Positions 4,309 through 21,216 of a stretch of DNA of 33,068 nt are shown one piece after another. The notes beneath the pieces were generated by a model, which was not told the DNA's origin, did not search any database, and saw only the letters and a list, made by a program, of their open reading frames with translations. The translations under genes were made by a program, and so were the position numbers. The stretch is from Chloroflexota bacterium (GTDB taxonomy: Bacteria; Chloroflexota; Limnocylindria; Limnocylindrales; CSP1-4). How positions within the stretch are numbered: the first letter of the stretch is position 1; every line of letters begins with the position of its first letter. The stretch spans positions 1 through 33,068 of the forward strand of contig JAFMJV010000027.1 of assembly GCA_017853275.1 (NCBI GenBank), given 5' to 3'.

Positions 4309-8898
<4,590 letters not shown>

Positions 8899-17856: not shown

Positions 17857-17874
17857 CTCTCACCGTCCTCTCAT
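17857..17874 (+). promoter_or_regulatory. tandem-repeat binding box, probably for the adjacent response regulator
   Basis: CTCTCAC and CTCTCAT, two 7-bp half-sites in direct orientation separated by four bases (11-bp period), end exactly ten bases before the -10 hexamer TACCCT. This is the geometry of the E. coli Pho box (CTGTCAT-N4-CTGTCAT replacing the -35), which is bound by a winged-helix regulator of the same family as the gene that follows. The same box recurs at 19952-19969. Binding by this regulator is inferred. Confidence 0.6.
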
Positions 17875-17884
17875 CCGCGCGCGC

Positions 17885-17890
17885 TACCCT
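17885..17890 (+). promoter_or_regulatory. -10 element of the response regulator gene, leaderless type
   Basis: TACCCT is followed by CCGCGC and then the ATG at 17897. The usual spacing of about six bases from -10 to transcript start puts the first base of the message on the start codon. No ribosome site fits in between. Confidence 0.55.
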
Positions 17891-17896
17891 CCGCGC

Positions 17897-18574
17897 ATGC
17901 ACCTGCTCGTCGTGGAGGACGACCCCCGCCTGCGCAGCCTCCTCGTCCGCCTCCTCGGCGAGGAGCGCCACCTCGTGGACGCGGTCGAGACCGGGGAGGA
18001 GGCGCTCGAGGTCGTCCTGGGGCCGGCGGGGATCGATCTCGTCGTCCTCGATCTCGGCCTGCCGGACCTCCCGGGCCTCGAGGTCGCCCGCCGGATCCGC
18101 GCCGCCGGGCGGACGCTCCCGATCCTCATCCTCACCGCGCGCGACACGGTGGGCGACCGGGTGACGGGTCTCGATGCGGGCGCGGACGACTACCTCGTGA
18201 AGCCCTTCGCGTTCGCGGAGCTCGCGGCGCGGATCCGCGCGCTCGGGCGGCGCGGCGAGGGCCCCTCCCGCCGGACCGCGCCACTCCTCGCCGTGGGCCC
18301 GATCGCCCTGGACGAGACGACCCGCACGGTGACCGTGGACGGCGTGCCACTGGAGCTCAGCCCGCGCGAGCTCTCCCTCCTCGAGTGCTTCCTCCGCCAT
18401 CCGGGACAGGCGCTCACCCGCGACCAGCTCCTCGACCGGGCGTGGCCGTGGGGCGTGGCGGTCACCCCGAACGCGGTGGACGCCTACATCCACTACCTGC
18501 GCGAGAAGCTCGGCCCGGCGGGCGCCCGGATCCGGACGGTGCGCGGGATCGGCTACCGGCTCGCGGATGGCTGA
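17897..18574 (+). CDS. two-component response regulator, OmpR/PhoB family
   Basis: A protein of 225 residues, the standard length. The receiver domain (1-115) has the acidic pair Glu7/Asp8, phospho-acceptor Asp52 (VVLDLGLPDLPG), the conserved Thr80 (LILTARD) and Lys102 (DDYLVKPF). The DNA-binding winged helix (about 130-223) shows ELSPRELSLLECFLRHPGQ, RDQLLDRAWPW and the recognition/wing segment VDAYIHYLREKL then IRTVRGIGYRL. Phosphorylation by the kinase encoded next should promote dimerisation on direct-repeat DNA sites. Longer open sequence upstream (to 17402) is only the shadow of the opposite-strand MFS gene. ATG 17897 is set by the TACCCT element six bases before it. The kinase gene overlaps its last eight bases. 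A tandem repeat lies before this gene and an identical arrangement lies before the protease gene, so autoregulation is likely. Confidence 0.93.
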   Translation: MHLLVVEDDPRLRSLLVRLLGEERHLVDAVETGEEALEVVLGPAGIDLVVLDLGLPDLPGLEVARRIRAAGRTLPILILTARDTVGDRVTGLDAGADDYLVKPFAFAELAARIRALGRRGEGPSRRTAPLLAVGPIALDETTRTVTVDGVPLELSPRELSLLECFLRHPGQALTRDQLLDRAWPWGVAVTPNAVDAYIHYLREKLGPAGARIRTVRGIGYRLADG

Positions 18575-19982
18575 CGGCGCGGACGGGTCCGGGCGCGCGA
18601 CGCCGGCGGATGCCGCTCTCGGGGATGACGGGCGCCTGCTCCGGCGCGTCCGGCTCCGGCTCGTCCTGTGGAGCGGCGGCGCGACCCTCCTCGTCCTCCT
18701 CGCCGTGGGGCTCACCGTCCGCTGGGTCACCCAGGAGGCGCTCGCGGCGGCCGGGACCGCCCCCTTGCGCGAGCGGGTCACGCTCGTGGAGCGCTTCCTC
18801 GCCACCGAGGGGGACGGCGCGGCCCTTCCCCCGCTCGAGCTCTATTTCGGCGGCCCGGGCTCCGGCACCTTCGCCTTCCTCATCCCGGACGGGAGCGAGC
18901 CGCTCCGGCCCCAGGCGGTGGAGGCACCCACCGGGCCGAGCCTGGCCGGCGCCGCCGCGGCCCGGGAGGCCGGCGAGGATGTGCGCACGGAGACCCGGGA
19001 CGGGGTCTCGTGGCGCTTCCTCACGGTCGCCGGCCGGGAGCAGCTCATCGTCCCCGGTCTCGGCGGCGAGATCGCCTACCTCATCCAGGTCGTGGCCGAC
19101 CGGACCGCGGAGCAGCAGGCGCTCGATACGCTCCTCCTCGCCCTCGTCATCGCCGGTGCGGTCGCCCTCCTCGGGGCGGGCCTCCTCGGCGCGCTCTACG
19201 CCGAGCGGGCGCTCGTCCCGATCCGGGCCGCGCTCGCGAGCCGGCGCGCAGCCCTGCGACGCCAGCGGGAGTTCGCCGCGGATGCCAGCCATGAGCTGCG
19301 CACGCCGCTGGCCACGATCCGGGCCGGCGTGGAGCTCCTCCGCCGGAGCCCTGCCGCCGCCGGACCGGGGTTCACGGAGGCGCTGGACGACCTGGACGCC
19401 GAGGCGGTCCACCTCACCCGCCTCGTGGATGACCTCCTCCTCCTCGCGCGCGCGGATTCCGGCGCGCTCGACCTCGTGATGGAGCCGCTCGAGCTGGGCG
19501 ATCTCGTGACGGAGGCGGTCGCCGCGCTCGCTCCGGGGGCCGAGCGCCAGGGGAGCTCGCTCGCCGTGGACCCCGCGCCGGTCCTCGTCCTCGGGGACCC
19601 GCTCCGGCTAAGGCAGCTGGTCACGATCCTCGTGGACAACGCGCTCCGTCATGGCGGGCCGGGCCGGCCCGTGGAGATCGCGGTGACGAACGCGGGGGCC
19701 GGGGCGCGGATCGTCGTCCGCGATCACGGCCCGGGGATCCGGCCGGAGGACCTGGCGCGCGTCTTCGACCGGTTCTGGCGTGCGCCGGGCCGTCGGACGG
19801 AGGGGAGCGGGCTCGGCCTCGCGATCGCGGCCGCGATCGTCACCCGCCATGGCGGACGGATCGGCGTCGCGAACCTGCCGGGGGGTGGTGCGGCCTTCAC
19901 CGTGGAGATCCCGCTCGCGGGCGCTTCGGGGAACGGTCACGATCCCGCCGGCTCTCATGCTCCTCTCATCGAGGAGGCGTAG
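18567..19982 (+). CDS. membrane sensor histidine kinase
   Basis: A protein of 471 residues with a classic layout: a helix at about 32-51 (RLVLWSGGATLLVLLAVGLT), an extracytoplasmic sensor region of about 130 residues (55-187) that I do not recognise, a second helix at about 188-212, a HAMP-like linker with PIRAALASRRAAL, and the dimerisation box SHELRTPLATIRAG with phospho-acceptor His242. The ATPase domain has the N box (VDNALRHGG, Asn358), G1 (DHGPGI, 387-391) and G2 (GSGLGLAI, 413-420), and FDRFWR as the F box. It should phosphorylate the regulator encoded upstream; the genes overlap by eight bases (ATGGCTGA). The last codons are doubly used: they contain the second tandem repeat box, and the stop TAG lies in the -10-like hexamer for the protease gene. 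The signal is unknown; envelope stress is suggested by the protease neighbour. Confidence 0.93.
   Translation: MADGADGSGRATPADAALGDDGRLLRRVRLRLVLWSGGATLLVLLAVGLTVRWVTQEALAAAGTAPLRERVTLVERFLATEGDGAALPPLELYFGGPGSGTFAFLIPDGSEPLRPQAVEAPTGPSLAGAAAAREAGEDVRTETRDGVSWRFLTVAGREQLIVPGLGGEIAYLIQVVADRTAEQQALDTLLLALVIAGAVALLGAGLLGALYAERALVPIRAALASRRAALRRQREFAADASHELRTPLATIRAGVELLRRSPAAAGPGFTEALDDLDAEAVHLTRLVDDLLLLARADSGALDLVMEPLELGDLVTEAVAALAPGAERQGSSLAVDPAPVLVLGDPLRLRQLVTILVDNALRHGGPGRPVEIAVTNAGAGARIVVRDHGPGIRPEDLARVFDRFWRAPGRRTEGSGLGLAIAAAIVTRHGGRIGVANLPGGGAAFTVEIPLAGASGNGHDPAGSHAPLIEEA
19952..19969 (+). promoter_or_regulatory. second tandem-repeat box, upstream of the HtrA-type protease gene
   Basis: CTCTCAT-GCTC-CTCTCAT, two identical 7-bp half-sites with an 11-bp period, matching the box at 17857-17874 in sequence and in its ten-base distance to the next -10-like hexamer. 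It lies within the last codons of the kinase gene. It is proposed as the target that links the two-component system to the protease. Confidence 0.6.
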
Positions 19983-19985
19983 AAC
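19980..19985 (+). promoter_or_regulatory. -10-like element of the HtrA-type protease gene
   Basis: TAGAAC begins exactly ten bases after the tandem box and includes the kinase stop codon. The final base is C instead of T, consistent with a weak promoter that depends on an activator. It predicts a leader of about 37 bases carrying GGAGG at 20013-20017. Confidence 0.45.
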
Positions 19986-20028
19986 GGGACCATCGACCCA
20001 CCCCCTCACCACGGAGGTGCACAGACCG

Positions 20029-21216
20029 ATGGACCAGCGAACCGCTCCGATCGGCGATCCGGGGACCCGGATCCGACCCCTTCTCACCCTGGGCGCCGCC
20101 CTCTCCGGCGTGGCCCTCCTCGCGGGCGCGCTTGCGCCCACGGCGCTCGGCGTGGGCGCCGGACGCGACGCCACCTCGGCGCCCGCTCCCCTCCCCGCCG
20201 TCGTGGGCGACAACGAGACGATCGTCGACGTCGCCGCACGCCTCTCCCCCTCGGTGGTCACCCTCCAGGTGACCGGGGAGCGCCCCGGGAACGCGGCCGC
20301 GCTCCCCGACGGCTTCGGTGGCGGCTTCGGCGGGGACGGGATCATGCGCGGGACGGGATCCGGCGTCATCGTCTCCTCGGACGGCCTGATCCTCACGAAC
20401 CGGCACGTCGTGGATGACGCCACCACGGTGGAGGTCATCCTCGCGGACGGCGATCGCGTGGACGGCGAGGTCGTGGGGATCGACACCTACACGGACCTCG
20501 CGGTCGTCCGGATGGAGGGCGATGGCTACCCCGCCGCCGAGCTCGGCGACTCCTCCACCCTCCGGATCGGCCAGCTCGCGGTCGCGATCGGCAGCCCGCT
20601 CGGCGAGTTCACCGGGAGCGTCAGCGCCGGGATCGTGAGCGGTCTCGACCGGTCGATCGAGGTCGGCGACCCGATGACCGGCGGTCGCAGCCTCCGCCAC
20701 CTCATCCAGACGGATGCGGCGATCAACCCCGGGAACTCCGGTGGCGTCCTCGCGGACGGCTCCGGCCGGGTGATCGGGATCAACACCGCGATCGCCGGGA
20801 ACGCCGAGGGGATCGGCTTCGCGATCCCGATCGATATCGCCCGGCCGATCGTGGAGCAGGTCCTCGCCGGGGAGAAGATCGCGCGCCCCTGGATGGGGAT
20901 CGCGTTCCGGGATATCGATGCCCAGGTCGCCGAGGAGGAAGGGCTCCCCGTCACCGAGGGCGCCTGGGTGGCACCCGCCGAGAACGGCGAGGGGACCTCG
21001 ATCGTCGAGGGGAGCCCCGCCGAGAAGGCCGGCCTGCGCGAGGGGGACATCATCGTCGCCCTCGATGCGAGCGCGGTGAGCCGGGAGACCCCGCTCGACC
21101 TCCTCCTCCTCGGCTACGAGCCGAAGGCGAAGCTCACCCTCACCGTCCTCCGCGACGGCAAGGAGAAGACGCTCGAGATCGTCCTCGGGACCCGCCCCGC
21201 CGACCTCGGGCGCTGA
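20029..21216 (+). CDS. HtrA/DegP-type serine protease with PDZ domain
   Basis: A protein of 395 residues. A single hydrophobic segment (about 17-42, LLTLGAALSGVALLAGALAPTALGV) serves as signal or membrane anchor, placing the protease outside the membrane. The trypsin-like domain shows the full triad: His126 (TNRHVVDD), Asp156 (YTDLAVVRM) and Ser237 (GNSGGVL). A glycine-rich stretch precedes it (GFGGGFGGDG). One PDZ domain follows (about 288-385) with the GSPAEKAGLREGDIIVALD core. The family degrades or refolds misfolded envelope proteins. ATG 20029 has GGAGG eleven bases upstream; an in-frame GTG at 20017 overlaps that site and is less likely. Preceded by a response-regulator-like tandem box and followed by a strong hairpin, it looks like the effector of the kinase/regulator pair, as with PepD beside MprAB in mycobacteria. 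Confidence 0.93.
   Translation: MDQRTAPIGDPGTRIRPLLTLGAALSGVALLAGALAPTALGVGAGRDATSAPAPLPAVVGDNETIVDVAARLSPSVVTLQVTGERPGNAAALPDGFGGGFGGDGIMRGTGSGVIVSSDGLILTNRHVVDDATTVEVILADGDRVDGEVVGIDTYTDLAVVRMEGDGYPAAELGDSSTLRIGQLAVAIGSPLGEFTGSVSAGIVSGLDRSIEVGDPMTGGRSLRHLIQTDAAINPGNSGGVLADGSGRVIGINTAIAGNAEGIGFAIPIDIARPIVEQVLAGEKIARPWMGIAFRDIDAQVAEEEGLPVTEGAWVAPAENGEGTSIVEGSPAEKAGLREGDIIVALDASAVSRETPLDLLLLGYEPKAKLTLTVLRDGKEKTLEIVLGTRPADLGR

Follow-up and report, generated by a model that had tools for sequence, protein, structure and literature searches.

Genes and sequence elements at the locus

In the window, by which is meant the whole 33,068-nucleotide stretch of DNA that was analysed, three plus-strand genes follow one another: those for a response regulator of the OmpR/PhoB family (225 aa, 17897-18574), a membrane sensor histidine kinase (471 aa, 18567-19982) and a membrane-anchored serine protease of the HtrA/DegP type (395 aa, 20029-21216). 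The regulator has the two domains of an OmpR/PhoB-family protein (Response_reg, 92.8 bits; Trans_reg_C, 82.7 bits), including the phospho-acceptor Asp52, and its recognition helix contains the stretch NAVDAYIHYLR (residues 192-202); the codons for residues 192-205, Tyr200 among them, occupy 18470-18511 on the plus strand, an assignment that draws on an alignment of the regulators and on the equivalence with Tyr220 of Mycobacterium tuberculosis PhoP (PMC4832192) described below. The kinase gene, which begins before the regulator gene has ended, encodes a HisKA domain with phospho-acceptor His242 and an HATPase_c domain. The protease combines a Trypsin_2 domain (PF13365, 118 bits) carrying the catalytic residues His126, Asp156 and Ser237 with a PDZ domain (PF13180, 49 bits), and falls below the narrower “Do family” cut-off (297 against 416 bits).

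Two short elements, here called boxes, accompany these genes on the plus strand. Box 1, CTCTCAC-CGTC-CTCTCAT (17857-17874), is a tandem 7-bp direct repeat with a 4-bp gap and is a candidate operator for the promoter of the regulator and kinase genes; exactly ten bases past it stands a -10-like hexamer, TACCCT (17885-17890), which ends six bases short of the regulator ATG. Box 2, CTCTCAT-GCTC-CTCTCAT (19952-19969), is a candidate operator for a separate htrA promoter, again with ten bases between it and a -10-like hexamer, in this case TAGAAC (19980-19985). Box 2 sits within the last kinase codons, the TAG of its hexamer being the kinase stop codon. A check of the sequence bore out a first-pass annotation of this DNA on all of these points, namely the positions and letters of both boxes, the ten-base distances and the placing of the second box inside the coding end of the kinase gene. 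A leaderless transcript is predicted for the regulator, given that TACCCT ends only six bases from the ATG at 17897. For htrA there is a leader, in which a Shine-Dalgarno-like GGAGG can be read at 20013-20017 (plus strand). An Rfam search of the window gave no match.

Elsewhere in the same genome there are four further strong OmpR-type DNA-binding domains, as well as a second regulator-kinase-HtrA operon (G000, contig C78, 27197-30328, minus strand; L226). This second operon is conserved in the family (L227, L238, L239), has a different recognition helix and is without TCTCA boxes.

Frequency of the boxes in the window and the genome

Exact copies of TCTCA-N6-TCTCA occur just twice in the 33 kb of the window, against an expectation of 0.03, and none of 100 shuffled sequences contained two; the earlier observation that the other promoter regions of the window hold no further copy was therefore right. 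In the genome as a whole (2.89 Mb) the same two window boxes are again the only exact copies, as they are for the full 18-mer pattern, so that the genome-wide scan proposed in the first-pass annotation returns a count that is not high. When three mismatches were allowed, seven matches were found in the window where 8.7 would be expected, which is chance level, and it follows that the signal depends on the exact repeats.

Conservation and geometry in related genomes

The boxes proved to be conserved in relatives; of the findings that the first-pass annotation named as counting against its reading, neither a high genomic count nor a lack of conservation was observed. G001, the only genome of the same genus among those listed, carries a box ahead of the regulator gene and another between the kinase and htrA genes (L207, reverse-strand positions 6456 and 8624), the second of these lying past the kinase stop codon and outside coding sequence. 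Across 107 genomes of the same family the pattern TCTCA-N6-TCTCA-N11-TANNNY gave 23 matches, while its reversed control gave none; the matches stand ahead of regulator and htrA genes, some of these htrA genes lying away from the regulator. Few matches to the exact form CTCTCAY-N4-CTCTCAY were found before regulator or htrA genes in relatives, because the half-sites of most relatives end in G; loosening the motif to TCTCA-N6-TCTCA recovers these boxes.

The spacing between the repeats is close to fixed. In a scan of 20 regulator/kinase loci, some of which were known beforehand to carry a box, 24 pairs of TCTCA were found at a spacing of 11 and two across every other spacing between 5 and 40 taken together, and the reversed and complemented words gave no pairs in the same scan. 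At 11 of 30 box sites, or about a third, TA is found at an offset of ten past the box, as compared with at most one site for any other offset, and relatives repeat both the ten-base spacing (box to -10) and the six-base spacing (-10 to ATG) of the window. The leaderless layout, in which the -10 is followed by six bases and the ATG, is seen at six of the 30 box sites including that of the window, and it occurs ahead of both regulator and htrA genes. In genus g2 (L219, L225) the boxes have TTGACT at the canonical offset, and TTGACTGG stands at the usual ten bases rather than a TANNNT -10. Actinobacterial and other kinase relatives, whose similarity lies for the most part in the catalytic half, showed no box accompanied by a -10. 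Matches to the box pattern in four genomes (G003, G029, G054 and G080; L148-L151; TTCTCACAGSCATCTCAT, TTCTCACAGSCATCTCATCACCTCCT) belong to one conserved stretch distant from gene starts and were rejected as not regulatory.

Genes that follow the boxes

The first homologous gene past a TCTCA site could be assigned for 29 of the 30 sites, and is most often HtrA (14), followed by the regulator (6), a MacAB-type membrane-fusion protein (4), DUF5666-like and YceI genes (2 each) and an FMN-binding gene (1). Several of the boxed htrA genes in relatives do not adjoin regulator genes, so the link between box and htrA is not a mere matter of gene position. The HtrA that neighbours the regulator in most other genera is short, lacks a PDZ domain and is usually encoded upstream.

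In most genera (L225, L219, L220, L224, L217) the regulator and kinase genes are clustered with this short, PDZ-less HtrA and a MacAB-type transporter operon; the same clusters include a DUF5666/CusF-like gene and sometimes YceI, and several of the genes have a box of their own. Boxes that are exact or have one mismatch also stand before FMN-binding, ApbE and ferric-reductase-like genes (L212 443-1777, L210 9148-10563, and L217), which suggests that the regulon has a branch concerned with flavin or redox functions outside the cytoplasm. Judged by these first genes, the predicted regulon in relatives is wider than one protease; of the “dedicated protease target” that had been proposed, htrA as a probable target is supported and the restriction to a single protease is not.

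Similar boxes are found in other families of the class. In L245 (G110), CTCTCAT-CTGG-CTCTCAC at 4403 precedes a Peptidase_A4 gene, and in L033 (G145) a TCTCA box lies ahead of a different regulator/kinase pair. TCTCA boxes may thus serve other regulators too, the motif not being exclusive to the regulator subfamily of the window.

Joint change of recognition helix and operator

Alignment of the regulators showed that genera without TCTCA boxes carry the helix NTVEAYIHLLR, whereas those with TCTCA boxes carry NAVDAYVHYLR. An unbiased search of 28 loci of the former kind for 5-mers repeated at a spacing of 11 returned TTCAG, with 33 pairs in 19 of the loci, and no TCTCA pairs at all. The first genes past the TTCAG boxes are of the same kinds as before (HtrA 13, membrane-fusion protein 11, regulator 4). 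When loci are sorted by the residue at position 200, the 23 loci with Tyr have 27 TCTCA pairs and no TTCAG pairs, while the 22 with Leu have 23 TTCAG pairs and no TCTCA pairs. Eight of the 23 Tyr-type and seven of the 22 Leu-type loci are without any exact pair, and several of these, though not all, are contig fragments. Genome-wide, with genera labelled as Leu or Tyr from the sampled loci, a Leu-genus genome holds on average 6.15 TTCAG pairs, against 0.92 for the reversed control, and a Tyr-genus genome 0.96, against 0.71; TCTCA pairs are present elsewhere in the genome in some Leu genera.

A second position behaves in a similar manner. The last base of the half-site is mixed (G, T or C) in the Tyr clade, and in the Leu clade 33 of 34 pairs have both half-sites ending in G, a pattern that parallels residue 195, which is Asp in the Tyr clade and Glu in the Leu clade. 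There are also natural intermediates, each with one box: L228, which combines Glu195 with Tyr200, and L237, which combines Thr193 with Tyr200, both have a TCTCA-type box that keeps the cytosine at the switched position (the L237 box has one mismatch, which is not at the switched base). About one change on the regulator tree suffices to explain the Leu group (support for the Leu clade 93/72), so the loci are not to be counted as independent trials; they represent one event affecting many separate promoters.

Structural work on related regulators gives these changes a plausible physical basis. In the crystal structure of M. tuberculosis PhoP with DNA (PMC4832192), a tandem dimer occupies two 7-bp TCACAGC motifs separated by a strictly needed 4-bp spacer. 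A hydrogen bond joins Tyr220 to the second base of the motif, C5, which is also touched by Val213 and Tyr217, and Glu215 reaches bases across from the motif's 3' part. No gap is needed to align the PhoP helix NVVESYVSYLR with NAVDAYIHYLR of the window regulator, so that Tyr220 is equivalent to Tyr200 (the two proteins are 37% identical overall, for a PhoP sequence whose helix residues match those named in PMC4832192), and the base corresponding to C5 is the C of TCTCA or the T of TTCAG. In PhoB, Arg201 takes the same helix position as Tyr200 and hydrogen-bonds a guanine (PMC3973317), which we infer to be the G of CTGTCAT. Since the residue at this position would read the base by which the window boxes and the Pho box differ, C or G at the third base, that base is likely to be a specificity-determining contact. 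It is this position that the first-pass annotation singled out when it named a change of the third base from G to C as the main departure from the Pho box.

It seems quite probable, on the strength of this covariation in sequence, that within one family the regulator and its whole regulon have switched operator jointly, NAVDAYVHYLR reading TCTCA-N6-TCTCA and NTVEAYIHLLR reading TTCAG-N6-TTCAG before the same genes (regulator, htrA and MacAB-type transporter), with Tyr200 to Leu corresponding to cytosine to thymine and Asp195 to Glu to a fixed G at the seventh base. Two-component systems that drive HtrA are a class already known, and what is newer in the present results is the change of operator from one sister clade to the other. 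It would provide a natural residue-level example of an OmpR-family regulator that alters its DNA specificity while its targets are retained, with intermediates available, and how one regulator and dozens of operators shift together becomes a directly testable question.

Proposed mechanism and alternative explanations

The uniqueness of the two boxes, their conservation within the genus, the fixed 11-bp and ten-base spacings, the boxes before htrA genes away from the regulator locus and the covariation of box with recognition helix all argue that both boxes are candidate operators of the response regulator encoded at 17897-18574, a reading that may be given a probability of roughly 0.88. All of these also speak for the original suggestion that the adjacent regulator acts on its own gene and on a protease target. 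Under such a scheme, an extracytoplasmic or envelope signal would cause the kinase to phosphorylate Asp52 of the regulator, which would then bind each 7-4-7 repeat as a dimer in head-to-tail arrangement, with a subunit on each helical turn; the dimer would replace a -35 element and contact RNA polymerase at the -10, whose first base follows ten bases after the box. From box 1 this would give autoregulation, as positive feedback, of the regulator/kinase operon with its leaderless start, and from box 2 it would drive htrA from a promoter of its own, the HtrA product presumably degrading or refolding damaged exported proteins as a form of quality control. The two-component system is probably of the envelope-stress type, and these results supply a predicted operator and regulon for it in a bacterial family for which no published regulon was found; a literature search for TCTCAT or TCTCAG direct repeats of response regulators likewise turned up no matching system.

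As to the sign of regulation, the autoregulation in the “positive autoregulation” put forward earlier is supported, and activation is suggested because the box occupies the place of a -35. It is conceivable, if unlikely, that the operators are real and that the regulator represses, or acts in opposite senses at the two promoters. There are precedents: in Streptomyces, CutR activates htrA3 and represses htrB (PMC10433416), and in Corynebacterium glutamicum overexpression of MprA represses sigE and sigB (PMC12113857). The position of the box speaks against repression, however, as it is that of a PhoB-type activator: the box stands at the place of the -35, and at several targets exactly ten bases separate its end from the -10.

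Control by the adjacent regulator might also be questioned on the grounds that some other regulator in the genome controls the locus through these boxes, given the four other strong OmpR-type domains and the box before an unrelated regulator/kinase pair in L033; but both genomic copies of the box lie at the locus of this regulator, and it is the recognition helix of this regulator with which the box covaries across the family, making control by another regulator very unlikely.

The boxes had also been described as Pho-box-like. In Escherichia coli, PhoB binds Pho boxes, tandem 7-4-7 repeats that take over the place of the -35 and are separated from the -10 by ten bases; the window boxes share all of this architecture, their half-site being one base off CTGTCAT, and to this extent the description holds. 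The further step of taking the regulator to be PhoB itself, with the boxes as variant Pho boxes answering to phosphate, is scarcely credible: the regulator falls below the PhoB equivalog cut-offs (TIGR02154, 179 against 296 bits; NF007546, 120 against 471), its recognition helix is PhoP-like with Tyr at the position of PhoB Arg201, the half-site is CTCTCAY with C rather than G as its third base, and the first genes in relatives are those for HtrA, the regulator, the MacAB-type transporter, YceI and FMN-binding proteins, no phosphate genes having been seen among these first targets. We would infer instead that a PhoB/PhoP-type regulator uses these tandem repeats as its operator, and that the box is not a Pho box.

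Finally, the boxes could be put down to chance or to the base composition of GC-rich DNA, with the second box no more than kinase coding sequence, and the three-mismatch pattern is indeed no commoner than in shuffles. But none of 100 shuffles reached two exact copies, the pairs in relatives peak at one spacing and the second box of G001 is non-coding; conservation and spacing in essence refute this reading.

Comparison with known systems

Direct control of HtrA in response to envelope or secretion stress is known from CiaRH in Streptococcus, CssRS in Bacillus and CutRS (acting on HtrA3) in Streptomyces (PMC12826053, PMC12802291). The window system resembles these in being a two-component system with an HtrA-type protease as its proposed target, and CiaR also uses direct repeats. 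The window system differs from them in gene order and in operator sequence, the CutR site being TAWATAAA.

Closer in organisation are MprAB-PepD of M. tuberculosis and CgtSR2/MprAB-HtrA of C. glutamicum, with which the window and G001 share the order regulator-kinase-HtrA, with HtrA directly downstream. In both of these systems the regulator controls htrA or pepD, in C. glutamicum it also controls itself, and htrA there has its own promoter inside the cluster (PMC3062566, PMC6975037, PMC12113857). The operators are not alike, at least as far as C. glutamicum is concerned, where the reported MprA motif is TKTTAAGAAM as against TCTCA-N6-TCTCA here, and unlike in the MprAB cluster no moa-type gene follows htrA within the window. 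For DNA recognition the resemblance is rather to M. tuberculosis PhoP, which has a similar helix and similar 7-bp direct repeats with a 4-bp spacer, TCACAGC being one base from TCTCAGC; the PhoP regulon is different, and the likeness is one of DNA reading without any claim of orthology. The closest known system is thus MprAB-PepD in gene order, and the closest found in DNA reading is M. tuberculosis PhoP.
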